Source of the DNA: Verrucomicrobiota bacterium
GTDB taxonomy: Bacteria > Verrucomicrobiota > Verrucomicrobiia > Limisphaerales > UBA9464
Length of the DNA: 43,602 bases
Assembly: GCA_947454705.1 (NCBI GenBank)
Contig: CANGKZ010000041.1
Location: forward strand, 1-43,602
Direction: 5' to 3'
Part shown: positions 4,097-43,602 of the stretch, piece after piece
Position numbering within the stretch: position 1 is the stretch's first letter
Layout of the letters: each line of letters starts with the position of its first letter
The notes under the pieces: model-generated
What the model saw: only the letters and a program-made list of their open reading frames with translations
The model's database searches: none
Told to the model about the DNA's origin: nothing
Translations under genes and position numbers: made by a program

Positions 4097-6505
4097 TTAG
4101 TGACCCGCTGTCTTGGAAATGACGAAGGGACGCATCATGTCATTGTCTTCATGATCAATGATGTGACAGTGGTACATATAACCTGGCCCACCCGGGAGTC
4201 CGAAGCCGTCGTTTTTCACTCCCATGGGCGCGCCCGGATCGAACGGGAAGGTGTTCTGTCCCGGTTTGACGCTCAAGACTCCCAGATCCTGCGGAGCCCA
4301 TCGAACCACAAAGCGACTGACCGTGCCGGGCATGACATTAATCGTATCCTTCCAGCCCGCTTGGTTGGGGTCGGGAGGGATCGGATTGCCGATCAAGTAG
4401 GGAGTGGTATCAGGATTTCCACCCATCGCCCCGGGAGAACTCAGGTAGGGCAGCGGAGTGCCGCCTCCATAGAGCGCGCCAATCTGGGAACCGCCAAGGA
4501 ACCAGGAATACTCGTAGGCTTCCGTCCGATATCCCGGAGAACTGAAATAGGGATTGGAGGGATTTGGATTCGCCGGATTTTGATCCGGCCGAACCGCTCC
4601 CACGTTAAGAATTTGATTGTTTAACAGCTGGAATTGAACCAAGTGGATGTGCATGGGATGCGCATCCGGAGTCAGGTTCACGAACTCCCAAATTTCGGTG
4701 CTGCCAATCTGGGGGTACTCCGAGACGTTGACCGTTCCATTCGCGATCGGGGTGGTGTCGGGAACCGGCGCACCGGTCTGCCAATTGAACGAGCCCACGG
4801 GGGTCTCTCCATTGTAATGGGTGTTGTTGATCAACACCTTGACCGGAGAACCCGTGTCGGGGTGCTCCTGTTCGATCAGAACCAGGCGCCGGGTGTTCTG
4901 CACTTTCACCCCGGCTCCAAAGCCTCCGCGTCCGTTGGCCAACTGGACAATCTGATCTGCATTGCGTCGCAACTGCGCATTGGGAACGGCGGGATTGAAG
5001 GACAAATCCTTGATGGGCAACCCGCTCTTGACCCTGAACTGCATGACCAAACCGTCCAAGGCGGGATCGGGAGCGGTTCCGCCCGGAAACGGGTAGTTGG
5101 CGTCGTTGCGAACGGTCAACGTCCGGCCGGCGAAGCCCGCGAAGTCGACGATCACATCGAACCGTTCGCCCGGAGACATCAGCATTCGCGGCTGCTGGAT
5201 CGTTTGGGATCCGAACGGACTTGCCGAGGTGTCATCCCGATTGAACGTGAAGGGGATGAACGAGCTGAGAGCCACCGGCTTGTCGAGCAATCCACCGTCC
5301 GTACCGATCTGCCAGATTTCAGGCACCGCTCCGGGACCGGACTGGCCGGCCTCATTGGCCATCGACAGGGAGAGGAACCGGGCGTTGCAACCGTTCAGAA
5401 AGCGGAAGCGATAACGACGAGGCTGGACCGTCATGTAGGGCCAGCTCTTTCCATTGACGACGATGACATCCCCGTAGGACTCCGGGATCAAGTAAGGATG
5501 CAACCCGGGGTTTCCAGGATCGCCATTCAAACCGGCGCCGCCCGGATTCCCGTCGGCGAAGTAGAGCTGACCGTTGGTGTCGAATTGCCGATCCTGAATT
5601 ACGATCGGCACTTCCTGGTCCTCGGAGGGAAGTGCCGGGGAGACCTTGGACTCCAAATCACCACGGATCAGGTAGAACCCGGCCAGACCGGCATACACGT
5701 TCAAACGGGTCTCTCCCACCGTATGATCATGATACCAGAGAGTGCTGGGTTGGTTGCGATTGACGTACTTGAAGGTGTCGGAAACGAAGGCAGGTCCCTT
5801 GATCGCAGCGTCGGGCGTGAACCAGGAGTCCGGATGACCGTCGAATGCCGACGGAACAATCCCGCCGTGGAGATGAACAATGGTGGGTTGGGGTCCGCTG
5901 TAAAAATCACTATTTCCCCAAGCCAGGCCGGTCTTGGGATCGCTACCGCCGAACTTCATGGGTGTTTTCAGGGGATCCGCCCAATTGAGGGATTGATCCA
6001 CCGTCAGGAACTTTTGGAGCAACGGTCCGGGCAACACGTTTCCATCGAGATCCTTGAACGGAACGAGCTGGTTGACCATTTTCACGCTGGTGGCCTTGCC
6101 AAATTCAGCCTCGATCGTGGGAGCCGGATAGGACGGGCCGAAGGAACGGCCGTTCTGGTCGACGCGATAGCCCCAAAGGTAGGTTCCCTTCTGGGGATTG
6201 ATCCGGGCGACCTTGGCCCCGGTGGCTTGGTCTAAATAGGTCACCGAAGTGGGCAGCGATGCGTAGAACGATGCAGGCAGGATTCGTTGCTGGAATTCGG
6301 AAGCAGTGATCGTGATTCCTGTCGAGTCCGCGCTTTGAACCACCGAATATCCTGATCCCGTCGGAATGGATTCACTGAACTTGGCTAGCCGGAAAGGATC
6401 CAAGACGGTCTGACCGATTTGCTGATTCGCAAAGGCCATGCCGACCGGTAAAACCAGCGCGCTTCCAGCGAATAATCGCCTGATTTTGGAGTTAATTCGT
6501 TTCAT
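4097..6505 (-). CDS. Secreted multicopper oxidase (CotA/bilirubin oxidase-like)
   Basis: An 802-residue exported oxidase that should couple one-electron oxidation of a substrate (phenolic, bilirubin-like, Mn2+ or Cu+) to reduction of oxygen to water. All four copper-binding segments are visible: HLHGG (H211, H213), WYHDHT (H259, H261), HPMHIH (H616, H619, H621) and YHCHIIDHEDNDM (H779, C780, H781, H785, axial M790). An axial Met, rather than Leu or Phe, predicts a moderate type 1 redox potential. The protein is about 300 residues longer than CotA, with extra segments between the copper regions. I chose ATG 6505 because it begins a normal signal peptide (MKRINSKIRRLFAGSALVLP); an ATG at 6541 would add 12 residues. 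A 14-bp palindrome lies 61 bp upstream and a hairpin follows the stop. Confidence 0.93.
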   Translation of the reverse strand: MKRINSKIRRLFAGSALVLPVGMAFANQQIGQTVLDPFRLAKFSESIPTGSGYSVVQSADSTGITITASEFQQRILPASFYASLPTSVTYLDQATGAKVARINPQKGTYLWGYRVDQNGRSFGPSYPAPTIEAEFGKATSVKMVNQLVPFKDLDGNVLPGPLLQKFLTVDQSLNWADPLKTPMKFGGSDPKTGLAWGNSDFYSGPQPTIVHLHGGIVPSAFDGHPDSWFTPDAAIKGPAFVSDTFKYVNRNQPSTLWYHDHTVGETRLNVYAGLAGFYLIRGDLESKVSPALPSEDQEVPIVIQDRQFDTNGQLYFADGNPGGAGLNGDPGNPGLHPYLIPESYGDVIVVNGKSWPYMTVQPRRYRFRFLNGCNARFLSLSMANEAGQSGPGAVPEIWQIGTDGGLLDKPVALSSFIPFTFNRDDTSASPFGSQTIQQPRMLMSPGERFDVIVDFAGFAGRTLTVRNDANYPFPGGTAPDPALDGLVMQFRVKSGLPIKDLSFNPAVPNAQLRRNADQIVQLANGRGGFGAGVKVQNTRRLVLIEQEHPDTGSPVKVLINNTHYNGETPVGSFNWQTGAPVPDTTPIANGTVNVSEYPQIGSTEIWEFVNLTPDAHPMHIHLVQFQLLNNQILNVGAVRPDQNPANPNPSNPYFSSPGYRTEAYEYSWFLGGSQIGALYGGGTPLPYLSSPGAMGGNPDTTPYLIGNPIPPDPNQAGWKDTINVMPGTVSRFVVRWAPQDLGVLSVKPGQNTFPFDPGAPMGVKNDGFGLPGGPGYMYHCHIIDHEDNDMMRPFVISKTAGH

Positions 6506-6541
6506 AGTAGGTAGTAAGGGGTAGACAAACGTCCCCCCCAT

Positions 6542-13858: not shown

Positions 13859-15334
13859 TCAGGCCACCAGCGGCTGGACCACCTTGCCATGGATGTCGGT
13901 CAAACGGTAGTACCGACCCTGGAACTTGTAGGTGAGCCGTTCGTGGTCGATGCCCATCAGGCGCATCACCGTGGCCTGCAGATCGTGCACGTGCACCGGA
14001 TCGGCCGCGATGTTGTACCCGAAGTCGTCGGTCTCGCCATAGGTCACGCCGGGCTTCACGCCGCCACCCGCCATCCAGGTGGTGAAGCAGCGGGGATGGT
14101 GGTCCCGACCGAAATCATTTTTGGTCAACTTGCCCTGGCAATAATTCGTACGACCAAATTCGCCGCCCCACACCACGAGCGTCTCATCCAGTAGACCGCG
14201 CTGCTTGAGATCGGTGATCAACCCGTAGCAGGCCTGATCGATGTCCTGGCATTGACGCCGGATACCACCGGGGAGGCCGCCATGATGATCCCAGCCGGGG
14301 TGATACAACTGGATGAACCGCACGTTGCGCTCCGCCATGCGTCGGGCGAGGAGGCAATTCGCGGCGAAGGTGCCGGGGGTGTTCACCGCGGAGCCGTAAA
14401 GATCGCGAACCGACTGCGGTTCGCCCGCGATGTCGAGCGTCTCCGGAACGCTGGTCTGCATCCTGTAGGCCATCTCGTACTGCGCCACGCGGGCGTTGAT
14501 TTCGGGATCGCCCAAATCCTCGAACTGCGCACGGTTCAATTCCGCCAATCCATCGAGCATGGAGCGACGGCTGCCCGCCGACACGCCTTCCGGATTTTTG
14601 AGGAACAGCACCGGATCGCGGCCGTTCCGAAAGAGTACGCCTTGATGCAGGCTGGGAAGGAACCCATTGCCCCACAGCCGGGCGTAGAGCGGTTGATCAA
14701 TGCGGTCCTTGGAAATCAGCACCACGAAGGCGGGCAGATTCTCATTCACCGAACCAAGCCCGTAGCTGAGCCAGGCGCCCATGCTGGGACGACCTGCAAT
14801 CTGCGATCCGGTTTGCAGGAAGGTGATCGCGGGATCGTGGTTGATGGCCTCGGTGTGCATCGACCGGATGAAACACAGGTCGTCCGACAACCGCGCCGTC
14901 CACGGAAGCAACTCGCTGAACCAGGCCCCGGATTTTCCGTGCTGCTTGAAGGCGAACGGCGAACCGGCGATGGGAAGCGTGGCCTGGTTGGCCGACATTC
15001 CGGTGAGACGCTGCCCCATGCGAACGCTCGCCGGCAGGTCCTGTCCGTGCATCTGGTTCAGACGCGGCTTGTAGTCGAAGAGATCCATCTGCGACGGACC
15101 TCCGCTCATGAACAGGTAGATGATGCGCTTGGCCTTGGCGGGAAAGTGCAGCTGATCGATCACTCCCCGGGGAGCATGCCCGGCTTCGGATGCTGCCCCG
15201 GCGACCGCGGTGGAGAGCGACCCTTGAAAGAGCGACGCGAGCGCGGCACCGCCGAGCCCCATGCCGAATCGACCGAAGAAGTCGCGCCGATTCATGGCGA
15301 AGTTGACGTGGGTGGAATTCATGGAGGAGTCCAT
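13859..15334 (-). CDS. DUF1501 domain protein (Tat-exported)
   Basis: A 491-residue protein of the DUF1501 family, which has an alkaline-phosphatase/sulfatase-like fold. The N-terminus has a twin-arginine signal ([20 protein letters not shown]), followed by [20 protein letters not shown], a family hallmark, and [16 protein letters not shown] and [19 protein letters not shown] near the C-terminus. These proteins are almost always paired with a DUF1553/PSCyt gene in Planctomycetes and Verrucomicrobia; the biochemical role is unproven, though they are often near polysaccharide or sulfate-ester degradation genes. It lies 16 bp downstream of the DUF1549/DUF1553 gene. The start may be ATG 15334, 15322 or 15295; no ribosome site decides. 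Confidence 0.92.
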
Positions 15335-15350
15335 TGCGTTCGGTTCGGGT

Positions 15351-18300
15351 TCAGCGGCGCATCACGGCTTCATCGTGGTTCAACAGGGCCTGGGCGACCA
15401 CCGCGGCAGAGGCCAGGTCCACTTCCGAAATGCCCGGTCCATTGCGCGCCTCACCCACCGCGAGCAGGCGCGTGGCGGAGGCAGGATCGGCGGTGAAACG
15501 TTCGCGCTGCTGTTGCAACATGCGCACCAGCACGCCGAGTTCGCGATCGGTCGCGGTGCGTCCCGTGACCACCCGGAACCCGAGCGCCAATCGCTGACGA
15601 TCCTCCGGACCGGCTTCGCGGTACATGCGTTCGCCAACGTGCCGCGCGGCTTCGACAATTTGGGGATCATTCAACAACGCGAGCGCCTGCAACGGCGTGC
15701 TGGTGCTCTGGCGTTTCACCACGCAGCCGTTTCGCTCTGCGGCATCGAAGGTGACCATCGACGGCGGTGGCACCGTGCGCTTCCAGTAGGTGTAGAGACT
15801 GCGCCGATGCAGATCCGCCCCGTGCCCCTGGTCGTAGCGCGGATTGCCCATGGCCACTTCCCACAATCCCTCGGGCTGGTACGGCTTCACACTGGGTCCA
15901 CCGAGTTTTTCCGAGAGCAACCCGCCGGCAAGCAACGCCTGGTCGCGAAGCATCTCGGCGCTGAGACGGCGTGCAGGACCGCGTGCGAGCCATTCATTTA
16001 CTGGATCGGCGGCCAGCAGATCGGCTCCGGCCTTGGAGGATTGGCGATAGGTGGAGGAGAGCGCCATCTCGCGGATCAATTGCTTCCAATTCCAACCGCC
16101 ATCGGCGAATTCGCGCGCGAGCCAGTCGAGCAACTCGGGATGGGTGGGCGGAGTGCCCTGGGAACCGAAATTGTCGGAGGTCTCCACCAGACCGCGACCG
16201 AACATCATCTGCCAGGCGCGATTCACCGTCACGCGAGCCATCAACGGATTCTCTGGCGCGAGCAACCAGCGGGCGAGGCCGAGTCGATTGGCCGGAGCGC
16301 CCGCAGGCAGCGGAGGCAGGGCGGCGGGAACCCCCGCAGTAACCGGTTCGGCCGGGGCATCGTAGGCGCCGCGCTTCAGGATGAACGCCGGCTTCGGCTT
16401 CTCCATTTCCTGCATGACCATGATGTCGGGAATCGAAGACACCAACCGGTTCTGCTCGGCACGCACGCCGAACAAATCATCGCGCCAGCGCGACACCTCT
16501 GCGGAATACGCGCTGCAGAAATACTCAAACAGGGCCTCGCGATCGGCCGGGGTCAGCTCGGACACCGGGCGCACCAGCACGGCGGCGAAACGCGAGTCGC
16601 CCGCGAGATGGGATGCTTCCATCGAACTCAACGCGCGATCATACACGCGAAGCTCGTCCACCCGGCCGCCCTTGAATCCGGAATCCCGCATGCGGAATCC
16701 AATGGTGAGATCGGGCTCGCCGCCGCCGTAGGTGAAATCCTTCCACAGGCCATCGCGCACGACTTCCACTTCAGCCGGAGCGCCGTTCACATACAGATGC
16801 AGCCCTGCGGCGCGGCTCGATCCATCGTAGGTGATCGCCACATGGGTCCAGTCGTTGGTGGCAATGACCGAGCGGCTTCGGATTCGCAGAGAATTCCCGG
16901 GCCACATGTGATGCAGCCCGACCGACAGATGGCCGTCCTCGAGCAACAACTCGTAGCCGCGGCTTCCGGCATCCATCCACGCACGGCTCTTGTGCAACAC
17001 CACCCAGCGCGGCGCGCGTGCTGGTGGATTGATCCACACCGAGAGCGAAAACGGAGTCGCCCGATTGAATGCGCCGGCCCCGGGGAGCGAGACCCCATTC
17101 TCACCGCTCAACAGCAGCGACTCACCAAAACGTCCCGGCGCGGAGCCGGGGGCATCGGAGGGCTGGGCGGGTTTTCTACCGGTGACCGCATTGGCGAACC
17201 GCGTGTCGTTCGTGCCGTCGAAGGAATAGGCGGCCACCAATCCCGGGATCTCCGGAGCCTTCGGCCGGTTCGACAACCAAGTTTGGAACGCCGTCCGGGT
17301 GGACTCCACCACTTCGGAACGGCGGTTGCGCAGCCGTTCCTCCGCCGTCTTGAACCGTTCCAACTTTGCCGACTCTTCGTCGGTGGAGAGCAGCAGCGTG
17401 GGCACCGGCATCACGTCGCCGAAGTAAACGGTCTGCCCGGATTCATCGATGTTTTGGAACATCGAATAGAGCTGGTAGAAATCGCGCTGGCTGACCGGGT
17501 CGTATTTGTGATCGTGGCAGCGCGAGCATTCCATCGTGAGCCCAAGGAACGCGGTGCCGAAGGTGTTCACGCGGTCCACCACGTAGCTGACCCGGAATTC
17601 CTCCTCCACGATTCCGCCTTCCTCGTTTTGCAGGTGCTGACGATTGAAGGCGGTCGCGAGCCGTTGCTCCTGCGTGGCGCCCGGGAGCAGATCGCCGGCG
17701 AGCTGCCAGGTGACGAACTGATCGAAGGGAAGGTTCCGATTGAACGAGCGAATCACCCAATCGCGCCACGGCCAGACGGGACGGTACCGGTCCATCTGGA
17801 ATCCGTGCGTGTCGGAGTAGCGGGCGAGGTCGAGCCAGTCGGTGGCCATGCGTTCGCCAAACCGGGGCGACCCCAGCAAGCGATCCACCACACGCGTCTC
17901 GGCGCCCTCGGCGCGGTCGGCGAGGAAGGAATCGATCTCCGGCAGCGTGGGAGGCAATCCAGTGATGTCGAGCGTGACCCGGCGCAGCCAACGTTCGCGA
18001 TCCGCAGGAGGGGCGGGCTTGAGTTGGTGGGCCTCCAGCTTCGCCAGCACGAACCGGTCGATTGGACTCCGCGCCCACGAGGAATCCTTCGGGGCGGGAA
18101 CGGTCGGACGCACGATGGGACGGAACGCCCAGTGACGTTCCCACTTGGCCCCGCCGTCGATCCATTCCTTCAGCTGATCCTTCTGCCGCTGGGTCAGTTC
18201 ACGATGCGCCTCGGGTGGCGGCATCAGGTCATCGGGATCCTTGGTGAGAATGCGACGGACCAGTTCGCTTTCCGCACTTTTGCCGGGGACGATCGTGGCG

Positions 18301-18629
18301 CGGCCCTTGGCGTTGGCGCGGTAGGCGTCGTCCGGAGTGTCGAGACGCAGCTTGCCCTTGCGGGCCTTTTCGTCGGGTCCGTGGCAGTGAAAGCACTTGT
18401 CCGAGAGAATCGGAAAAATGTCGCGCTGGAAGTCCACCGGCGCGGCGGACAGCCACGAGGTCACCAGGGCGAGATGACTTCCCACCCCCAGGGCCAGTCC
18501 GAGCCCGAGCCGCTTCCAAACACCCGGCCGGGCTCCCAACGGATTCATTCCCACGATGCGCATGCGATAAAACGAGTGACGACTTGGACCCCCGGCCCCG
18601 CCGGGGAATTCAGGGGTTTCTGGATTCAT
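15351..18629 (-). CDS. PSCyt1/DUF1549/LamG/DUF1553 cytochrome c-like protein
   Basis: A 1092-residue exported protein. After a signal peptide (about 38-62) comes a planctomycete-type cytochrome c domain with haem motif CFHCH (C79, C82, H83) and [11 protein letters not shown]. Next is DUF1549 (PSCyt2; [20 protein letters not shown] and [20 protein letters not shown]), a LamG/concanavalin-like carbohydrate-binding insert (about 470-640, [17 protein letters not shown] and [11 protein letters not shown]), and a C-terminal DUF1553 domain (PSD1; [20 protein letters not shown]). The combination suggests an extracytoplasmic redox protein linked to polysaccharide use. ATG 18629 overlaps the methyltransferase stop in ATGA; starts at the Met residues 23 or 28 are also possible. 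It is paired with the DUF1501 gene downstream. Confidence 0.93.
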
Positions 18630-19315
18630 GAGGGTCGGGCCCGGAGTGCGATTTCCTTCAGCGGTCGGACGGCTTGCATTGCCCGACGCAGGAAACCGAA
18701 TCCCCCTTCGCCGAGGCCGAATCGCGCCGCCATCTGGGCCGCACGACGATCATAGCCGTAGGTGCGCAGCGCCAAATGCTCAATCCGGAACCCGGCCACG
18801 TTGACGAGGTTTCCGAGCGTCTGCGGATTCCAGGAAAACAGGTGGTGATTCGGCTCCGCGGGGTCGTATCGACGGTACCGCGCCTCGTGTTCATACGGCA
18901 CCGCGAGCAGCAGCAGCCCGGCAGGATCGAGCAATCGACGCGCCTCCGCGAGCATCGCCAGCGGATCCGGCACGTGCTCCAGCGCGTGATGGCACAGCAC
19001 GGTTTGAAATCCGCCGGCAGGCAGAGCGCCGGTGGAATTCACGAACTCAATTCCCTGCGCCTCAATTTCGGTACGCAACTGTGTGGCGACGTCGAATCCC
19101 ACGCGGCGGCGGCATCGGAGTGCGGCGAGGTTCCATCCGGCACCGCAGCCGAGTTCGATCACGGCATCCGCTTCCTTCACGAACGGTTGGTGGACCTCCG
19201 CGCGGGCGCGGGCGACCCACGGCAGGGAGCCGGGCGGGAGGCCGCGTTTCCCGTCGTGATACTCGTGCCCGGCCTGCCCCTGGTAGGCGGCGCGTGCGGT
19301 ATCGGCGGCGGACAT
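18626..19315 (-). CDS. SAM-dependent class I methyltransferase
   Basis: A 229-residue Rossmann-fold methyltransferase of the Methyltransf_11/23 type. Motif I is VIELGCGAGWN (52-62), FDVATQLRTEIEAQGIEF follows as the region of the acidic loop, and CHHALEHVPDPLAMLAEARR is the motif II-like helix. The C-terminal part reads HHLFSWNPQTLGNLVNVAGF, a pattern of sugar- or lipid-associated methyltransferases. The substrate is not evident. ATG 19315 is chosen because the 61 extra residues of the longer frame to 19498 show no conservation features and would overlap the divergent gene. The stop overlaps the DUF1553 start by 4 bp, so the two may be translated together. Confidence 0.88.
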   Translation of the reverse strand: MSAADTARAAYQGQAGHEYHDGKRGLPPGSLPWVARARAEVHQPFVKEADAVIELGCGAGWNLAALRCRRRVGFDVATQLRTEIEAQGIEFVNSTGALPAGGFQTVLCHHALEHVPDPLAMLAEARRLLDPAGLLLLAVPYEHEARYRRYDPAEPNHHLFSWNPQTLGNLVNVAGFRIEHLALRTYGYDRRAAQMAARFGLGEGGFGFLRRAMQAVRPLKEIALRARPS

Positions 19316-33120: not shown

Positions 33121-33273
33121 GTTGAAACCACAGATGGACACAGATTCACACAGATCGAGAGGAAGATGGGCGGTTCGACTGGGCTCGAACGGTTTCGCCT
33201 TCTGAGTGATCCACAAGTGCTGCCGTTCTCCGAATTTCCATCTGTGTTCATCCGTGTCCATCTGTGGTTGAAC
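33121..33273. repeat. Inverted pair of CCACAGATGGACACAGAT repeats
   Basis: The left arm (33121-33155) reads GTTGAAACCACAGATGGACA and continues in CACAGAT units; the right arm (33234-33273) is its inverted copy, ATTTCCATCTGTGTTCATCC through CCATCTGTGGTTGAAC. About 78 bp separate them. The arms are imperfect but clearly related, so the region can fold into a large cruciform or stem-loop. There is no coding frame. Other copies lie near 955-994, 37690-37733 and 39784-39822. Confidence 0.8.
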
Positions 33274-34956: not shown

Positions 34957-37185
34957 TCAAGGCCGAGCCAGACGGTAGATCGCATTCGGCTCCACCATGG
35001 GGAGCGTGAGTTCATACCGATCGTTCCGGAGCGTCGGTGTCCCCGTTACTGGAATCCAGTTCAACGACGGCGTCAGGCTCGACGCCTTTTGCACCATATA
35101 GCCCGAAGTCCCCGCGGACCACGACACCGTAAAGCCGTTGCGAACAATCTCTCCGCGAAGCGCGGTGGGATTTCCAATCACCGCCAAAAGGCCGACGTCA
35201 CTCACCGCGATCTGAGTGAGGTTGTGATTGAGAGAAGTCGGCGGTGCGATTCCCAGCGCCGTTCCGTCGTCAAGCAACGCAGCCATGGAGGCCTGTCCGG
35301 CCGCCAGTTGCACGATGCGCCGTCCCGGCGGGACCTGCCACAACGGCAGCAACGTTGGTCCCGACCACCCGATCGCCGTGCCGTCCGATTTCAGCGCCAG
35401 AGTGAATCCATCCCCTGCGGCAATCGCCGTCACTCCGCTGCGGGCTGCCACCGGGATTGCTCCGGGAGTCGCGGAACTTTCACCCCAGGTCACCACCGCC
35501 CCGGATGCGGTGAGCGCAGCCGAATGCCGGGTGCCTCCGGCGATGGCCACCACATCGTGCTGTGCCATTTCCGGTACATCGCATTGATGTTGGGCATTCT
35601 CACCCCAGGCCACCACCCGCCCGTCCGACCGCAAAGCCAGGGAGTGATAGAACCCGGCTGCGATCGCCTTCACCCCGGTCTGGGCCTCGATCGGCACCGT
35701 GATCTGATGGTGGAAATCGTTTCCCCAGGCGATCACGTTTCCAGATTGGGTGAGGGCGATCGAGTGGTTCGCGCCACCTGCGACATCAAGGATGTTCGTC
35801 TTCGCAGCGTCGGGAACGTCGGCCTGTCCGAAATTGTTCCAACCCCAGCCAATCAGGGATCCATCCTCGCGAATGGCGAAGGCATGCCGATACCCCGCGG
35901 CAACCCGACTCACCCCGCCCAGAGTCTTCACCGGATAGTCCGGCAACAGATTTCCCAGCGGATCCCGCGACGCGCTCCAGTAAACCGTCCCGTTTCCCGG
36001 CACCACGCGAAGCGGCGCATCCAGCTCAGTCACCGCGATTCCAGCGCTGTTGCTCAACTTCACGGAGTATCGTCCCGCTTGGCTCAGCGAAACAGATCCC
36101 AGGTTGAGATTGGTCCCGGTCGCGTCCGGAAGGTTGGTTCCGTGGTGCATCCATTGAATCGCCCCGCCCACCGCATCCGGGATGGCCACCAGATTCAAGG
36201 GCTGCCCTTCCACCACTGGCTGGCTCACCGATTGAATCGCGATGCTCGGCAATGGAGGATTCACCAGTACCATCAGGTTGTCGTCACCGAGGGACACATC
36301 CAACACGCGGTTTCGAACCAACTGGGGAAGGCCCGCCGCAACCGATTCGGAATAGCCCCACACCGTCGCGGAACCATCGCCGTGGAGCACGGCCGTGGAG
36401 CGGCCTCCCGCCCGGATCGCCTTGATGTCCTTCTGCGCGGCCTCGGGAATGTTGCCGAGCCCAAACGTCGTCATGCCCCAGGTCACCAGGGTTCCGTCGC
36501 GTCGCAACGCCACATTGTGGGCCAATCCCGCGGCAATCGACACCACATCGCTTTGCGCGGCCAAGGGAACCACATTCAACCCAAAGCGGCTGTCGCCCCA
36601 GGCGATCACCGATCCGTCCTTCCGCAGCACCAGCGAATGATCGCCTCCTGCAGCGACGGCGACCGCTCCCTGCCGTGCCGACTCCGGAATCGTGGCCGCC
36701 CCCGAAGCGCTGGTTCCGCAGCCCACAACGGTTCCATCGGTCTTCAACACCAGCAGATGGGAATCCCCGGCCGCGATGGCCGACACGCCGGAGCGCGCCT
36801 CGGCGGGCGCCCATCCTGCGTTCGCAGCGGCGCCCCACAGAATCAACGTCCCATCGCTCTTCAACGCCTCGAAATGATTGGCACCAACCCCAATGGCAAC
36901 AACTCCCCCATTGGCCTCGGTGGGAATTTTCACGTGGGACTCACCGCCGTCCCAGAGCTCCACAGAAGCGTCCGGACGAATCGCCAACCCCACTCCGGAT
37001 CTGACCGCGATGGAGCAGACCCCGATGCGATTCCCGTTCCGAAACGAACCCTGGACCATCACCGTGCCCGGAATCCCCGGAGCCCCCAGACACAGGGATC
37101 CGCCGATCAGCGCCGCCACCGATATGCCCCAGAATTGGTACGCGCGTGACCGTAAAAACCGCGAACCCAAAGGATTTGTTTTCAT
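34957..37185 (-). CDS. Secreted RCC1-repeat protein with an Ig-like domain
   Basis: A 742-residue exported protein with signal peptide (about 16-40). About ten RCC1-type repeats (pattern AIAAGxxHxLxLxxDGxVxxWG) surround an Ig-like domain (about 320-400, VEGQPLNLVAIPDAVGGAIQ and AGRYSVKLSNSAGIAVTELD). The RCC1 units form a beta-propeller; in secreted bacterial proteins the role is usually binding or surface display, and no catalytic motif is visible. ATG 37185 is certain: it has a perfect AAGGAGG ribosome binding site 7 nt upstream. The extra 36 residues of the longer frame to 37293 are not needed. The C-terminal tail (about 680-742) resembles the short sorting-like domains of verrucomicrobial secreted proteins. 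Confidence 0.9.
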   Translation of the reverse strand: MKTNPLGSRFLRSRAYQFWGISVAALIGGSLCLGAPGIPGTVMVQGSFRNGNRIGVCSIAVRSGVGLAIRPDASVELWDGGESHVKIPTEANGGVVAIGVGANHFEALKSDGTLILWGAAANAGWAPAEARSGVSAIAAGDSHLLVLKTDGTVVGCGTSASGAATIPESARQGAVAVAAGGDHSLVLRKDGSVIAWGDSRFGLNVVPLAAQSDVVSIAAGLAHNVALRRDGTLVTWGMTTFGLGNIPEAAQKDIKAIRAGGRSTAVLHGDGSATVWGYSESVAAGLPQLVRNRVLDVSLGDDNLMVLVNPPLPSIAIQSVSQPVVEGQPLNLVAIPDAVGGAIQWMHHGTNLPDATGTNLNLGSVSLSQAGRYSVKLSNSAGIAVTELDAPLRVVPGNGTVYWSASRDPLGNLLPDYPVKTLGGVSRVAAGYRHAFAIREDGSLIGWGWNNFGQADVPDAAKTNILDVAGGANHSIALTQSGNVIAWGNDFHHQITVPIEAQTGVKAIAAGFYHSLALRSDGRVVAWGENAQHQCDVPEMAQHDVVAIAGGTRHSAALTASGAVVTWGESSATPGAIPVAARSGVTAIAAGDGFTLALKSDGTAIGWSGPTLLPLWQVPPGRRIVQLAAGQASMAALLDDGTALGIAPPTSLNHNLTQIAVSDVGLLAVIGNPTALRGEIVRNGFTVSWSAGTSGYMVQKASSLTPSLNWIPVTGTPTLRNDRYELTLPMVEPNAIYRLARP

Positions 37186-37192
37186 GCGCTTG

Positions 37193-37199
37193 CCTCCTT
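37193..37199 (-). promoter_or_regulatory. Perfect Shine-Dalgarno site of the RCC1 gene
   Basis: AAGGAGG (read on the minus strand, CCTCCTT on the plus strand) lies 7 nt before ATG 37185 and decides that start. Most other genes in this window have weak or no such site, so this gene is likely translated strongly. Confidence 0.85.
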
Positions 37200-37321
37200 G
37201 TCCCCAGACGCACCGTTTTTGATCCCTTTCCAAAGGTGAACTGATGCGCTGTGGATCTGGGGGCAATTTAGCAATCGCCGCGCCAACATTCAACCGGCGG
37301 CGAACAGGTTCACGGCGACTT

Positions 37322-38010: not shown

Positions 38011-39810
38011 CTACTTCGCACGCTCCCGCGCCACTCGCAACGCATTGGCCACCTCGGCATTGGCGGGATCCATTTTCGCGGCCTTCTCCAACAACGGACG
38101 CGCCTCCTCCGCCCGACCCTGTTGAAGCCGGATCAATCCCAGCGAGGCGCAGGCGAGAGAATCGGTCGCATCCAGTTTCAACGCGGCGGCAAATTCTACC
38201 GCAGCTTCCTCCAGATGCCCGGCCTGCAATTCCAGCATGCCCAGATTCCCGTGCCCGCGCGCGTGCCCCGGGTTGAGCGCGACCGCACGACGAAACGAGG
38301 CCATCGCCTCCGCATTCTCCCCCTTCATCCGATGCGCAATGCCAAGGTAGTAATGCGCCTCGTCCAACTGCGGCGACACCTCGACGGCGGTCTTGAACTG
38401 CTGGAAGGCCGCTGTGTTCCGACGCTGCCCCAGATACGCCCGGCCCAGATTCACATACGCCGCCCCGTCTTTGGGATCGATGCGGAGGCGTTCCTGGTTG
38501 AACAAAATCGAATCCCGCAGCGCACGTTCCAGATTTGATTTCTCAAACGCCTTTTGTCCCTCCGCCGTGCGGGGAAGAAGCTGGAGCCAGAGCTCGGCCA
38601 TTTCATCGGTCGTGTTCGGACCAAACCGAACGCGCTGCGGTGGATTCGAAGGATTCCACGGATTCGCCGCGGAATTGTCGAACTGGATGCGCATCTGCAC
38701 CACACTGCCTGCCGGAAGAAACACCGGCGTGCGATAGGTGTAGTCCCCCTGCCAGTTGAAATCCCACGCAGGAATCAGCAGCAGGCTCTTCAGGGTTCCA
38801 TCGGGCAACTGCGCGTGCGCCTCCACCCGGCGTCCGAGATAATGCGTGTGGGGCAGGATGCCGAGAACCTCCGCATCGGCCGGGATCCGGTATTCATCGG
38901 TTGCGATGGCATTGGTAATGCCCGGAGCCAGATCGATCGAGTAATTCGCCAATGCCACCTTCACCGGCCGGTTTGTCGCGGCCTGATCGGTGAAGTAGAA
39001 TCCCACTTCAATCTCCAACGGCTCCGGTTTGCCGAGGGGCTTGAGGTGGGTCTGAACCACCAGATCACTTCCCGGCTCAAGCCTCCAGGCGAGCCCCGGC
39101 GGACTGCGTCGAACTCCTGCACCGGGCTGCCAACTTGCAAAATGACCGTCGGGTGACCGGACGGACATCGGCGTGTCCATTCCGGGGAATCCCGGCTCGG
39201 AATCCAAGGCGTCGCGTCGTCTCGCCTCGCCCGATTGGTCCACGCGGAGGAAGGCATGATGCGCCGCGCGGGAGTGCGGATGGAATTCCCAGGCGGCGAC
39301 ATTTCGCGCCACTTCAAGCGGAACCGGAATGACGAAGTGCCGGTACACATCCCGTCCCGCCGCGGGCACCGTGTAGGCCACCGGCATCCGCACGATCAAA
39401 TCCGGCTTTCCCAACGTCCATTCCCCCGGCCATTCGCGGGGCTTGGGAGCCTTTGCCGGATCGCCCTCCGGCATCCCGGCCTTGACCCAGGATTGGAACA
39501 CTTCGATTTCGGGATCCGTCAGCCGCCGTTCCCCGACAAATTCCTCGGACTGCGGCGCCGGCAGCCACGGAGGCATGTAGCGACGCGCCGTCACGTAGGC
39601 GATCTCGCGTCCATGCTTGGCCGCATCCGCAAAGGTCAGAAGGGAAAACGGGGCCGACTGCCCCGGCCGATGGCACCCCGCGCAATGCGTTTGAAGCAAT
39701 GGTTCCACGTCCTCGTGAAACGCAACCGCCGCCACCGCCTGTGACGAAATGAGCGACATTCCAATTCCGAGCACCAGACCTCTTCCCCATCCGTGTGAAT
39801 CTGTGTCCAT
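38011..39810 (-). CDS. Cytochrome c / PHM-like copper monooxygenase / TPR fusion
   Basis: A 599-residue exported protein of three parts. A cytochrome c-like domain has the haem motif CAGCH (C43, C46, H47) and RYMPPWLPAP. A copper type II ascorbate-dependent monooxygenase (PHM/DBH-like) domain pair follows, with both copper sites visible: AAHHAFL (H184, H185) and QTHLKP (H255) for CuH, and LPHTHYLG (H321, H323) with TTDEMAE (M404) for CuM. The C-terminus (about 445-590) has tetratricopeptide repeats (AAYVNLGRAYLGQ, AHYYLGIAHRMKG). The domains suggest oxygen-dependent hydroxylation of an unknown substrate in the periplasm, with the haem as a possible electron donor. ATG 39810 falls inside a dispersed repeat, so the N-terminal residues come from it; ATG 39759 is another possible start. 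Confidence 0.88.
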   Translation of the reverse strand: MDTDSHGWGRGLVLGIGMSLISSQAVAAVAFHEDVEPLLQTHCAGCHRPGQSAPFSLLTFADAAKHGREIAYVTARRYMPPWLPAPQSEEFVGERRLTDPEIEVFQSWVKAGMPEGDPAKAPKPREWPGEWTLGKPDLIVRMPVAYTVPAAGRDVYRHFVIPVPLEVARNVAAWEFHPHSRAAHHAFLRVDQSGEARRRDALDSEPGFPGMDTPMSVRSPDGHFASWQPGAGVRRSPPGLAWRLEPGSDLVVQTHLKPLGKPEPLEIEVGFYFTDQAATNRPVKVALANYSIDLAPGITNAIATDEYRIPADAEVLGILPHTHYLGRRVEAHAQLPDGTLKSLLLIPAWDFNWQGDYTYRTPVFLPAGSVVQMRIQFDNSAANPWNPSNPPQRVRFGPNTTDEMAELWLQLLPRTAEGQKAFEKSNLERALRDSILFNQERLRIDPKDGAAYVNLGRAYLGQRRNTAAFQQFKTAVEVSPQLDEAHYYLGIAHRMKGENAEAMASFRRAVALNPGHARGHGNLGMLELQAGHLEEAAVEFAAALKLDATDSLACASLGLIRLQQGRAEEARPLLEKAAKMDPANAEVANALRVARERAK

Positions 39811-39822
39811 CTGTGGTTGACC
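39784..39822. repeat. CCACAGATGGACACAGATTC repeat overlapping a gene start
   Basis: On the minus strand this is AACCACAGATGGACACAGAT followed by TCACACGGATGG, the same sequence as at 33127-33155. It spans the proposed start codon ATG 39810 and encodes the first residues (MDTDSHGWG) of the monooxygenase-like protein. Confidence 0.75.
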
Positions 39823-39830
39823 CTGCTTTT

Positions 39831-40436
39831 TCAGAGTGAACGAAACGTACACCCCACCGCCGGAACCACCCTCCCGGTCGCAATGCCGCCGGTCAAATAG
39901 TCACGCACCGCATCGGCGAGATCGTGCTGCGTGGGCTGGGGACGATCCTGGCCCAGGGCCGAGTGTTGATCATTGATTCGCCCGCGATAGATCAACCGTC
40001 CCTCACCCGTGAGCGCCACAGCCTCCGGCGTCACGTGCGCCTCGTACTGCCGTGCGACGCCTTGCCCGACGTCGCGAAGCACCGGAACATCGATCCCGTA
40101 TTCCTTGGAGTGCTGCCGGATTTCGGCCACGGATTCGAACGCGCTCGCGTGAACGAAATAGACAGGCATGCCGACCGCTTTGAATTCGCATGCGAGCGAC
40201 AGAAGTTCAGGAACCGCCCGATTCGCGATCGGACAATCCACGGCCACATACACCAGCACGCATCCGCGCGATCCGGCGAGTTGCGAGATTGGGACCGCTT
40301 TTCCGGAAAGATCTTTTAGGGAGAGACCGGATGTTTTCGGCGTCGATTTGCATCCCGTGGCTCCACCGAGAATCAGGAGGCCGAGCCACACCGCGAGCAG
40401 TCCGCGCCAAGGTGCTATGACGGCCCTGTCCCTCAT
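39831..40436 (-). CDS. Redoxin-like lipoprotein (thioredoxin fold)
   Basis: A 201-residue protein with a lipoprotein signal (LLAVWLGLLILGGATGCKST; lipobox GATGC). The redoxin/AhpC-TSA-like domain contains LVYVAVDCPIANRAVPELL with a single Cys where many redoxins have Cys-x-x-Cys, then VYFVHASAFESVAEIRQHSK and TPEAVALTGEGRLIYRGRIN. This type is often found fused to, or next to, PHM-like copper monooxygenases in PVC bacteria, as here. ATG 40436 overlaps the upstream gene stop in ATGA. The longer frame to 40802 is rejected because it lies entirely inside the upstream gene. Confidence 0.85.
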   Translation of the reverse strand: MRDRAVIAPWRGLLAVWLGLLILGGATGCKSTPKTSGLSLKDLSGKAVPISQLAGSRGCVLVYVAVDCPIANRAVPELLSLACEFKAVGMPVYFVHASAFESVAEIRQHSKEYGIDVPVLRDVGQGVARQYEAHVTPEAVALTGEGRLIYRGRINDQHSALGQDRPQPTQHDLADAVRDYLTGGIATGRVVPAVGCTFRSL

Positions 40437-41995
40437 GGACGCTTTTGAATCCGCGTGTTGCGCAGCACGAGTGCATTCACCCCATTGGTCTTCCACGACG
40501 CTTGAAGCGCCGGCGGAATCTCGATCGCCGGGGGCCCCTGCGAAAACGCACCCAGCACGAGATCGATGTCGCCGTCGCCGTCCACATCCCCGGCATCCAT
40601 CGAAATCCAGCGGCCCTGATTCGCACCGTGGAACGTGTGCGGCGAAAACTTCATTCCGCCCCGATTCTCCAAGTAAACAAATCCCTCGGACACGGAACGC
40701 GAGAAATCCGGGAAGAACGAGATCACCGCCAAGTCCAGATCCCCGTCCCCGTCGAAATCGCGGGCCAACGTTTTGAACGCCCCGTTGATGGGATAAAACC
40801 ACGACTCCTTCAGGTTCATCTTTCCATCGTTCAAATAGATCCGGACCCCGTGGTAGCGCTTGAAGGGCGACGGGTATTCCCCGTTGTCGCCGTTGGTCAC
40901 GATCACATCCGGAATGCCGTCGCCGTTCATGTCCGCGATCTCAAAATGAACGGACCCATAAGCCGGCGGAAACTGAATCAAAGGCCGCAGGGTGAACTCG
41001 CCTTTTCCATCGTTGGTGAACAGGTTGAGCCCCTCGCGTCCCTGCGCGATCAGCACCAGCAGGTCCGGTTTTCCATCGCCGTTGAAATCACGAATCTCCG
41101 CGTGCACCGCGCCGGGTTGCTCCAGCAGCACGTGTTCCTCCAGCCCGCCGAGCCGCTTGCGCTCAAACCACGAAAGCCGGCCCAGATAATTCCCGAAGGA
41201 ACAAACGAGATAGTCGTTGAGACCATCGCCATTCAGATCAGCAACCAGGCACTGCACCGGACGCGCGAGCGAAGTCACCAGCGGCGGATACACCGAAGTA
41301 TCCCCGGGTGACGGCACCGGCACGATCTGTCCGTCCGCAACATCGGACGGATAAATGTGACCGATCAGGGTAGCGAACAGCCGCGAGCCATCGCGCTCCA
41401 AGTGAACCGGCGCTCCCCCCAGCGCCTGCTTTCGAAGCCACGTCCCATCGCCGCGAAACGTCACCAGCGATCCGCTTGATCCGTCGCCCAACCGAATCTC
41501 GCGCGCCGCCGGATCGATCGACACCAACGTGGTGAGCGGAAGCCAATCAGGAATGGTCAGTTTCTCGGCAGCGAACAACGTTAGATCCGGGACAATGGGA
41601 TCATGCGGCGGCTGCGGAAGCGCGTTGGTGGGGGCTGTACGTTGATAGTACTCGGAGATCGCAAACCAATCGTCGCGCGGCAAAATGGGCGACGGCGGAA
41701 ACAGATTCGCAGCCTGCAGCCGCGCCGCATCGGGCCGATTCTCCATGCGCACCTGCGCCACGCCCAAGAACGGCGCCATCTTGCGCAAGGTGTGATGCTG
41801 CCACGTCGCCTGCGTCAAAAGATCCGGCTCGGGAAACAAATGGCACACCGAACAATACTGGTTCGCCAACACCCGTCCCCGTTCCAAGCGCTCGGCCAAA
41901 GCGGGCTCCGCTCCAGCCGCCGACAAAACCCAACCGACGCCCACCGCGAGAGCCATCGCGAGTCGCTGCATCCAATTTGGTTCAACTGGTTTCAC
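40433..41995 (-). CDS. Cytochrome c / FG-GAP repeat protein
   Basis: A 520-residue exported protein. After the signal peptide (WMQRLAMALAVGVGWVLSAAG) comes a haem motif CSVCH in NQYCSVCHLFPEP and then FG-GAP/VCBS propeller repeats with Ca2+-binding loops: DLNGDGLNDYLV, DFNGDGKPDLLV, DMNGDGIPDVIV, DFDGDGDLDLAV, DVDGDGDIDLVL. The GTG at 41995 overlaps the upstream stop in GTGA and follows AGGAG at a usable distance, so it is preferred to ATG 41971. The operon order suggests the protein works with the redoxin and monooxygenase genes that follow it. Confidence 0.87.
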   Translation of the reverse strand: MKPVEPNWMQRLAMALAVGVGWVLSAAGAEPALAERLERGRVLANQYCSVCHLFPEPDLLTQATWQHHTLRKMAPFLGVAQVRMENRPDAARLQAANLFPPSPILPRDDWFAISEYYQRTAPTNALPQPPHDPIVPDLTLFAAEKLTIPDWLPLTTLVSIDPAAREIRLGDGSSGSLVTFRGDGTWLRKQALGGAPVHLERDGSRLFATLIGHIYPSDVADGQIVPVPSPGDTSVYPPLVTSLARPVQCLVADLNGDGLNDYLVCSFGNYLGRLSWFERKRLGGLEEHVLLEQPGAVHAEIRDFNGDGKPDLLVLIAQGREGLNLFTNDGKGEFTLRPLIQFPPAYGSVHFEIADMNGDGIPDVIVTNGDNGEYPSPFKRYHGVRIYLNDGKMNLKESWFYPINGAFKTLARDFDGDGDLDLAVISFFPDFSRSVSEGFVYLENRGGMKFSPHTFHGANQGRWISMDAGDVDGDGDIDLVLGAFSQGPPAIEIPPALQASWKTNGVNALVLRNTRIQKRP

Positions 41996-43602
41996 TGGAT
42001 GCGATCTCCTGCTGTGTTGATGCGAATGGCGCGTGTGTTGGGCGGGAGTTCGGTGCGGGTCTCCCGGCCTCCGGGCCACTTCACGCGCACGGCTCGGATT
42101 TCACCGCTCTGGTTCATCACCTGTTCGGCTCCGTCCTGACTCCAGTATCCGCTGCCGCCGTGCACTTCACGGGCTGCTCCCAGTTTCCCGGTCGCGTCCT
42201 CCAAGCGGATCACTGCTCCGTATCCATCCCGGTTCCCACTTGGACCCACGAGCGACACCCGCAGCCCCGGCTTGGCTTTCTCGTTGTGGTACACTTTCAC
42301 GCTCCCGGCGTTCTGTCCCACCACCAGATCCACTCGGCCGTCTCCATCGTAATCACACACCGCCGTCCCGCGGCCTTCCCCATACACAGCAATGCCCGTT
42401 TCCACTCCATCGACTGCTGTAAAGCCTCCCCGGCCATCGCCCTTGAGCCACACTCCGCGCCCGGCATCGCTTCTCGATTCCGCCGCATTCACACCAAAGA
42501 AGTTCTGGGCGAGGAACACGTCTTCGTTCCCGTCCCCGTCGTAGTCCGCCACGCTCACCCCAAAGCCCACTGCGCGTTGGGCCAGTTCCGGCAGTTTCAC
42601 GGCTTCAAACTTTCCCCCGCGGTTCAGGAACACCGTGCTCTCCAGCCAGTCCACTTCCAACACTTCGGCCTTTTTCCCGTTCAGGATTCCTCCCATCTCC
42701 GCCTCGGCCCAGGCCTGGTGGCTGGGATACTTCTCCCGCACCCAGGGCATCATTTTTGATACCGTGTTTAGGTCTCGCACCGGCTGCCATTTTCCGTTCT
42801 CCAGTTCGGCTTCCAGGAGTTCCACCTGTCCGAGTCCGCTCAGGTCGCCCCAGTACAGACGTTCGTGTCCGTGACGCGTGTTCGTTCCCCAGTTCGATGC
42901 CACCAGGTCCATGCGTCCGTCTCCGTCAAAGTCTCCTGCGCTCACGCCATTCCAGAAGCCCCGATACTTCCCGAGTCCCAGATCTTGTTCCACCAACTGG
43001 CCGTTCCGGTTTTGGTACGTCTTAAGTCCGCCCCATTCCGTCGCCAGCACCAGTTCAGGTCGCCCGTCGCCGTCTAAATCCGTGAACACGGCTCCAGTCA
43101 CCAGGCCGCTGTTCTTCAGGGCTTCGGTGTTTTCCAGGTCCGGTTGCCAAGTTTGGTTTACCCGTTTCCACATCCGTGAGCCTTCCGATTCCGGATACCT
43201 CGCAAAGCGCACCCGGTTGCCCACGAAGAGTTCGAGTTCGCCATTTCCCTTCAGATCCGCCAGCGCCACCGCGCCGCTCGATCCCCACGGGCCACTGACC
43301 ACTTTGTTTGTGCCCAGGTCCAGGCTCCACGCTTCGGCTCCGCCGCCGGTGTTCGATCCGTCTTCGTGATTGGCACTGCCATAGATCACCGTGGTCTTCT
43401 TTCCTTCACCCGGGAGTCCGGCAATGCCGGTTTGGTCCCGCTCTGCGGCGGGACCGGTCTTGGGTTCAAAGCTTCCCGTGCCGGTGTTGCGCAGCCATGT
43501 GAGGACTCCTCCGCGGCCACTGCCCAGCACCACGTCCATCTTTCCGTCTCCGTCCACGTCCATCCAGCCGACGCCGGGGCCCAGTTGACTGAGCTTTCTC
43601 GG
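41992..43602 (-). CDS. FG-GAP / ASPIC-UnbV (CRTAC-type) protein, cut by right edge
   Basis: The visible 536 residues are the C-terminal part of a larger secreted protein; the frame is open to base 43602. It contains FG-GAP/VCBS repeats with Ca2+ loops (DVDGDGKMDVVLG, DLDGDGRPELVLA, DFDGDGRMDLVAS, DYDGDGNEDVFLA, DYDGDGRVDLVVG) and ends with an ASPIC/UnbV domain: GYGAVIRLEDATGKLGAARE, GGSGYWSQD and VRVKWPGGRETRTELP. Family members are calcium-binding, secreted and of unclear function. The stop overlaps the GTG of the next gene, making it the first visible gene of a four-gene operon. Confidence 0.9.
   Translation of the reverse strand, partial: PRKLSQLGPGVGWMDVDGDGKMDVVLGSGRGGVLTWLRNTGTGSFEPKTGPAAERDQTGIAGLPGEGKKTTVIYGSANHEDGSNTGGGAEAWSLDLGTNKVVSGPWGSSGAVALADLKGNGELELFVGNRVRFARYPESEGSRMWKRVNQTWQPDLENTEALKNSGLVTGAVFTDLDGDGRPELVLATEWGGLKTYQNRNGQLVEQDLGLGKYRGFWNGVSAGDFDGDGRMDLVASNWGTNTRHGHERLYWGDLSGLGQVELLEAELENGKWQPVRDLNTVSKMMPWVREKYPSHQAWAEAEMGGILNGKKAEVLEVDWLESTVFLNRGGKFEAVKLPELAQRAVGFGVSVADYDGDGNEDVFLAQNFFGVNAAESRSDAGRGVWLKGDGRGGFTAVDGVETGIAVYGEGRGTAVCDYDGDGRVDLVVGQNAGSVKVYHNEKAKPGLRVSLVGPSGNRDGYGAVIRLEDATGKLGAAREVHGGSGYWSQDGAEQVMNQSGEIRAVRVKWPGGRETRTELPPNTRAIRINTAGDRIQ

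Follow-up and report, generated by a model that had tools for sequence, protein, structure and literature searches.

Peptidylglycine alpha-hydroxylating monooxygenase (PHM, of PAM) and dopamine beta-hydroxylase (DBH) have been studied mainly as animal enzymes, and both take their electrons from ascorbate. DBH has the same copper core as PHM with an extra N-terminal domain, DOMON, ahead of it. A haem-fed copper oxygenase is known in LPMO, which is fed by cellobiose dehydrogenase. Among the papers listed in a literature search that covered few subscription journals, none concerned a haem-fused bacterial PHM or its redoxin partner. The locus described here, from a Verrucomicrobiota bacterium (GCA_947454705.1, 5.4 Mb), encodes a protein, g4, that probably joins a PHM/DBH-fold copper monooxygenase and a haem c on a single chain, judging from its sequence and its predicted structure. 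The window, meaning the whole stretch of DNA that was analysed, is the entire contig CANGKZ010000041.1 (G000:C41; 43,602 bases), in which four minus-strand genes, g1-g2-g3-g4, occupy positions 43602 down to 38011. Relatives of g4 are called haem-PHM below. The conserved core of the locus is the redoxin encoded by g3 together with the haem-PHM, not the four-gene order, and with a probability of about 0.6 we read g3-g4 as an extracytoplasmic PHM/DBH-fold dicopper monooxygenase that is fed by its own haem c and served by a dedicated redoxin.

Predicted fold, copper ligands and haem motif of g4

An alignment of 76 g4 relatives (A1) was used both as a profile and for an AlphaFold2 model of g4, which reached a predicted local distance difference test score (pLDDT) of 94.2 and a predicted template modelling score (pTM) of 0.89. 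The first 31 Foldseek matches of this model are all PHM and DBH entries, with PHM 1sdw at E 3.7e-14. Alignment with VIA-align gave Z 20.4 against rat PHM 3mic (257 residues, 3.5 A, about 17% identity; model residues 108-387 on PHM 62-326) and Z 19.2 against human DBH 4zel_A, the first unrelated chain following at Z 7.7. The predicted structure is therefore that of a two-domain PHM fold. Searched against the PDB, the A1 profile also retrieves PHM chains (E 2e-7), and in that alignment the g4 motifs VHH, LQxH, HxH and DEM fall on the PHM ligands, PHM itself having VHH and LQVH. Read in this way, CuH would be held by three histidines and CuM by His-x-His and a methionine, as in the PHM/DBH superfamily. 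Conservation of each ligand is given in Table 1; the 107 open reading frames (ORFs) counted there include some duplicate fetches, and a later set of 118 ORFs reduces to 105 distinct ones. The two copper sites proposed in the earlier note are upheld in that the ligands align on the PHM sites and the model has the right fold, that is, by alignment and not by geometry.

The resemblance reaches the second shell, as the position equivalent to PHM Q170 is Gln in 69 of 76 relatives and that equivalent to Q272 in all 76. PMC6123673 describes Q170, Q272, H108, waters and substrate of PHM as forming one network. Ahead of the copper core, the CxxCH motif (C57, C60, H61) and Met93 as the likely distal ligand point to a c-type cytochrome, and no cysteine of the family is conserved apart from the haem pair (76/76; the next-best column has 12/76). 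What the earlier note had seen in g4, a fusion of cytochrome c, a PHM-like domain with all copper ligands and TPR repeats, is borne out by profile, model and Pfam.

Compared with PHM, g4 shares the two-domain fold, the six copper ligands in register and the Q170/Q272 equivalents; it differs in its N-terminally fused haem c, its TPR tail, its redoxin partner, the lack of conserved cysteines outside the haem pair and the replacement of the carboxylate-binding residues considered below. DBH likewise carries an additional N-terminal domain, whereas that of g4 is a c-type cytochrome. In cellobiose dehydrogenase and LPMO a haem protein is the one-electron donor to a copper monooxygenase, as would be the case for g4, but the haem type and the copper fold are different and g4 has donor and oxygenase on one chain.

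Sequence families describe the copper core poorly. As a single sequence the PHM part of g4 has no Pfam match at E 0.01 (Cu2_monoox_C reaches E 0.21 and 11.5 bits, below the cut-off of 23), a single-sequence search of the PDB with the core gave no match, and no relevant family was found in NCBIfam. Among the 76 relatives, PF03712 is matched by 28 and PF01082 by one at E <= 0.01.

Linkage of the redoxin and haem-PHM genes

Pfam assigns g3 to AhpC/TSA (E 4.5e-10) and Redoxin, the former a match at superfamily level only; PHROGs has no family for it. The closest structures to the g3 model (pLDDT 94.7) are 2ywi, 2cvb and 3u5r (Z 18.7-19.5), followed by ResA (14.5) and PrxQ (13.0), and the profile matches in the PDB agree, with 2cvb/2ywi/3u5r at E 2.5e-29 to 2.3e-23 (2ywi at 2.5e-29) and ResA-type proteins at 1.6e-11. 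These three proteins share the thioredoxin-like fold with g3, and the solved 2ywi aligns with it at both conserved cysteines; their depositors' titles give no definite function, whereas g3 is tied to haem-PHM. Two more specific assignments were considered. Sco-type copper chaperones have CxxxC and a distal His, while g3 has one conserved cysteine in DCPIANR and the second 128 residues further on; Sco-like proteins are not among the best 50 structural matches of the g3 model, which excludes nothing. The peroxidatic cysteine of 2-Cys/PrxQ peroxiredoxins lies in PxxxT/SxxC, while the consensus of the g3 alignment (A3) around Cys68 is FLxxDCPI.

We examined the linkage of the two genes in 58 near genomes, own included, of which 50 carry haem-PHM (single-sequence query, E 1e-10) and 51 the redoxin (E 1e-5). 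The 102 redoxin matches divide into 51 that share a frame with haem-PHM, 28 within 3 kb of it and 23 not near it. Sharing a frame means here that the redoxin lies no more than 2.5 kb from the haem-PHM match in a frame that spans 550 aa or more, which was read as a fusion, and the 28 are in shorter frames. By chance 0.37 redoxins would be expected near haem-PHM, a rough estimate that takes about three haem-PHM per 5 Mb genome. Of the 23 distant redoxins, three have frames as long as 692, 860 and 621 aa; each may be fused to a partner that is unlisted or below the cut-off.

An overlapping set gives the arrangement of the pair. In the 94 of 105 distinct haem-PHM ORFs with at least 900 nt upstream, taken as assessable, the redoxin is linked in 52, lying upstream in 38, downstream in 8 and fused in 6 (five N-terminal, one C-terminal). 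Clustering of the neighbours, which is crude and swamped by antisense ORFs, likewise gave the redoxin as the clear recurrent real gene (51/97 loci). On a tree of 91 rows made by a quick method, five of them without a state, at least 21 switches of linkage state are counted, or at least 16 if only linked and unlinked are distinguished, so the link either survives rearrangement or is regained. The fact that upstream, downstream and both fused arrangements all occur makes a functional tie hard to avoid. As to the gene order that the earlier note described, it is this pair that proved conserved, the full order being found in only a few relatives.

Genomes carry up to seven haem-PHM matches, fragments counted. 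The genome studied here has three full-length g4 paralogues (on contigs C3, C13 and C34), each with an N-terminal redoxin fusion in frame, and five more weak matches (E 1.7e-9 to 9e-4) that cover at most the cytochrome part. Two haem-PHM genes lie side by side at L030 (7458-9641 and 9663-11540), L063 (7956-9647 and 9790-11715) and L048 (7818-9635 and 9733-11550); no redoxin was found in the examined stretch of these tandem loci.

Proposed mechanism and alternative readings

In the mechanism that we propose, g4 would be exported, followed by haem attachment and copper loading. A periplasmic donor would reduce the haem c, whose domain would take the place of soluble ascorbate, and electrons would pass singly from the haem to CuH (H198, H199, H269) and CuM (H335, H337, M418). 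CuM(I) would then bind O2, and the C-H bond of a substrate other than peptidylglycine would be hydroxylated, while the TPR tail might hold partners. The g3 redoxin would keep the enzyme competent by thiol chemistry during assembly, either by delivering Cu(I) or by reducing the haem CxxCH, and g1-g2, with their Ca-type propellers and second cytochrome c, may dock or feed the enzyme in this lineage. The first half of this scheme rests on sequence and the second on the established chemistry of O2 activation and hydroxylation in PHM and DBH. Export of g4 is probable from its sequence: a hydrophobic segment lies within the initial 60-75 residues of each of g2, g3 and g4 (best 15-residue mean 1.7-2.2), with less hydrophobic segments after it (best 19-residue mean 0.9-1.2), and g3 carries a lipobox-like GATGC. 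Secretion, as claimed in the earlier note, is thus in keeping with N-termini that resemble export signals. The extracytoplasmic haem/copper electron path that it suggested fits the haem c, the copper core, the adjacent redox partner and the export-like N-termini, but not as a path through all four products.

Several observations weigh against reading g3-g4 as a dedicated extracytoplasmic system. A closely linked redoxin is missing from 42 of the 94 assessable loci, and proximity is therefore not obligatory. The redoxin is one member of a broader thioredoxin-like family, and since 2ywi shares both cysteines, this cysteine pair is not special to the haem-PHM partnership. The case for export is built on hydrophobic N-termini and CxxCH motifs. 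In the genome itself Cu2_monoox_C finds C13 and C34 at 18-19 bits, below the cut-off, and no place above it, and a loose search with this model also gives sub-cut-off matches in 2 of 14 control genomes. The missed cut-off is, however, a limit of the Pfam models and not of the biology; fold and ligands decide.

The match of fold and six ligands to rat PHM would also suit a peptidylglycine alpha-hydroxylase in the strict sense, acting on glycine-extended peptides. We consider this highly improbable, because the positions aligned with R240, N316 and Y318, the residues that bind the peptide carboxylate in PHM, are Arg in 0, Asn in 1 and Tyr in 1 of the 76 relatives. In the alignment, then, the metal sites and the second-shell Gln are kept and the residues of peptide recognition lost, which makes peptidylglycine an unlikely substrate. 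In a partial look at 70 neighbours (70 of 138 candidate ORFs, chosen by hand from 110), no NHL/PAL-type lyase appeared among 25 listed families of the 92 matched. Sulfatases made up 7 of the 70, in genomes of a kind rich in sulfatases, and neighbour annotation offered no clue to the substrate. It is very unlikely, too, that the copper sites serve electron transfer or copper storage with no oxygenation. The number of haem-PHM matches in a genome, up to the seven mentioned above, fits many roles, this one included, but the three-His and two-His-Met sites are kept together with the Q170/Q272 equivalents, which storage alone would not need.

A different question is what the neighbours of g4 do. 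As the haem pair holds the only conserved cysteines of the partner, the possible targets of a thiol protein are the haem CxxCH, copper, peroxide and substrate, and for the same reason we favour a role for g3 in assembly. The main rival to this role, which we find doubtful, is that g3 scavenges H2O2 from uncoupled turnover. Its AhpC/TSA match speaks for scavenging, as does the placing of its cysteines, one (DCPI) opening the first helix and the other far away in the chain, the arrangement of 2-Cys peroxiredoxins; the structural ranking, in which PrxQ comes below both 2cvb/2ywi/3u5r and ResA, speaks against it (Z 19.5, 14.5, 13.0), even if ResA and PrxQ differ by only 1.5. A single conserved system of all four genes, with both cytochromes, the redoxin and the propellers in one electron path, is unlikely. 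The genes do overlap, and their order recurs in L014 (same contig as G007/L141), in L015 for three genes until the contig ends, and in G030 with a gap. However, a g2-type gene is found within 6 kb of haem-PHM at only 4 of 40 places (G000, G007, G030, G010), and of 20 g2-type neighbourhoods, most of them taken from high in the match list, 13 hold a CRTAC1 (g1-type) gene, often adjoining, and 3 hold haem-PHM. Strong CRTAC1 matches occur in the examined flanks of 7 of 97 haem-PHM loci (108 of 194 flank sides reach 5 kb), although CRTAC1 is a multi-copy family found in 46 of 58 genomes at E 1e-60, with five strong places in this genome. Because the genes for the propellers and the cytochrome are mostly found at other places, often side by side, conservation does not support the one path through all four products that had been suggested, and g1-g2 is taken to be an independent module that became linked to g3-g4 in this lineage.

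Other features of the locus and distribution of the family

The four genes, their coordinates and the GTGA and ATGA overlaps are as the earlier note gave them (Table 1). The g2 start GTG at 41995 shares bases with the g1 stop TGA (41992-41994), as does the g3 start ATG at 40436 with the g2 stop (40433-40435). The g3 gene stops at 39831, and g4 starts at either GTG 39852 (22-nt overlap) or ATG 39810 (20-nt gap). Promoter and terminator scans gave results near chance. The two cytochromes c, redoxin and propeller proteins are likewise confirmed by haem motifs, Pfam domains and DxDxDG-type motifs, of which g1 and g2 have five each. In g1, which keeps only the C-terminal part of a CRTAC1 protein since the contig ends at 43602, Pfam finds FG-GAP and UnbV/ASPIC (UnbV_ASPIC exactly at its 23.4-bit cut-off); most of the listed g1 relatives are in open frames of about 1,200-1,400 aa. 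In g2 Pfam finds FG-GAP, and its cytochrome matches are weak (E 0.017-0.086); C48, C51, H52 and M73 are each kept in 24 rows of a 26-row alignment that includes the sequence from the window itself.

Table 1. Features of the g1-g4 locus, with positions in the window
Feature	Position	Strand	Basis
g1: CRTAC1-type FG-GAP beta-propeller with UnbV/ASPIC C-terminus, 5' part missing	41992..43602	-	Pfam, homology
g2: monohaem cytochrome c and FG-GAP propeller, hydrophobic N-terminus, GTG start	40433..41995	-	Pfam, alignment
g2 haem-binding CSVCH (residues 48-52)	41840..41854	-	motif; C48-C51-H52
g3: redoxin (AhpC/TSA; 2cvb/2ywi/3u5r-type thioredoxin-like), possible lipoprotein	39831..40436	-	Pfam, model
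g3 Cys68 (DCPI)	40233..40235	-	52/52 in A3; 61/62, 1 gap, in first alignment
g3 Cys196 (VGC)	39849..39851	-	52/52 in A3; 62/62 in first alignment
g4: haem c, PHM-like, TPR protein	38011..39852	-	Pfam, model, family profile
Dispersed-repeat copy encoding g4 leader MDTDSHGWG	39788..39817	-	genome repeat search
g4 cytochrome c domain (residues 44-135)	39448..39723	-	alignment, model; weak Cytochrome_CBB3 match, E 0.035
g4 haem-binding CAGCH (residues 57-61)	39670..39684	-	105/107 ORFs, 2 gaps
g4 Met93 (MPPW), presumed axial haem ligand	39574..39576	-	107/107 ORFs; ligand role inferred
g4 two-domain PHM/DBH-like copper monooxygenase core (residues 145-430)	38563..39420	-	model, profile
CuH ligands His198, His199	39256..39261	-	107/107 ORFs each; profile alignment with PHM
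CuH ligand His269	39046..39048	-	107/107 ORFs; profile alignment with PHM
CuM ligands His335 and His337 (HTH)	38842..38850	-	107/107 ORFs each; profile alignment with PHM
CuM ligand Met418 (DEM)	38599..38601	-	104/107 ORFs, 3 gaps; profile alignment with PHM
g4 C-terminal TPR repeats	38023..38535	-	Pfam

In G030 the four-gene order is that of L123 (G030:C97), where g1 is only a piece at the contig end, the redoxin domain is about 1.3 kb away from that of haem-PHM, and the latter is in a frame of 861 aa. In L025 and L027, which are near-identical relatives, the strong CRTAC1 match in the haem-PHM flank starts 38 nt downstream.

The first codons of g4 are provided by an exact copy of a dispersed repeat, and the relatives L014, L015 and L017 are without this leader. 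Allowing up to 2 mismatches, the genome contains 110 copies of the repeat's 27-nt core, ACAGATGGACACAGATNNACACGGATG, against 0 for the reversed control; further copies in the window are at 33127-33156 (+) and 33239-33268 (-). Many of the listed copies pair as convergent inverted repeats about 110 bp apart, and the repeat resembles a small palindromic mobile element.

Elsewhere on the contig, a multicopper oxidase (Cu-oxidase_2/3; 4097-6541, minus strand) is a further copper protein. Opposite a PSCyt1-PSCyt2-laminin-G-PSD1 gene (15261-18755, plus strand) runs an open frame of 1,164 aa (15351-18629, minus strand); Pfam gives no match for it at E 1e-5, and it is most likely an artefact of base composition. 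Downstream of g4, after about 0.7 kb in which repeat-like stretches are seen by eye, lies a gene for an RCC1-repeat protein with an Ig-like match (34957-37293, minus strand).

A sample of the phylum contained haem-PHM in 6 of 145 genomes, own included (profile A1, E 1e-20), a figure obtained with a different query and cut-off from the 50 of 58 near genomes. Titles of contigs with haem-PHM include Verrucomicrobia, Planctomycetes, Acidobacteria and Bacteroidetes, although the titles of metagenome-assembled genomes (MAGs) can be wrong; among the titled contigs with a g4 relative, those closest come from Verrucomicrobia MAGs, and several carry the label Pedosphaera. Tentatively, and at somewhat less than even odds, these proteins may represent a widespread bacterial class of haem-c-wired PHM-fold monooxygenases in Verrucomicrobiota and relatives, each an exported single chain with a dedicated redoxin, fused or adjacent, acting on non-peptide substrates and present as several paralogues per genome. 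A haem donor on the same chain, if true, would dispense with ascorbate and allow the CuH-to-CuM electron step to be monitored optically. As haem-PHM is common in the near lineage and sparse across the phylum sample, the family may also mark an ecological trait.

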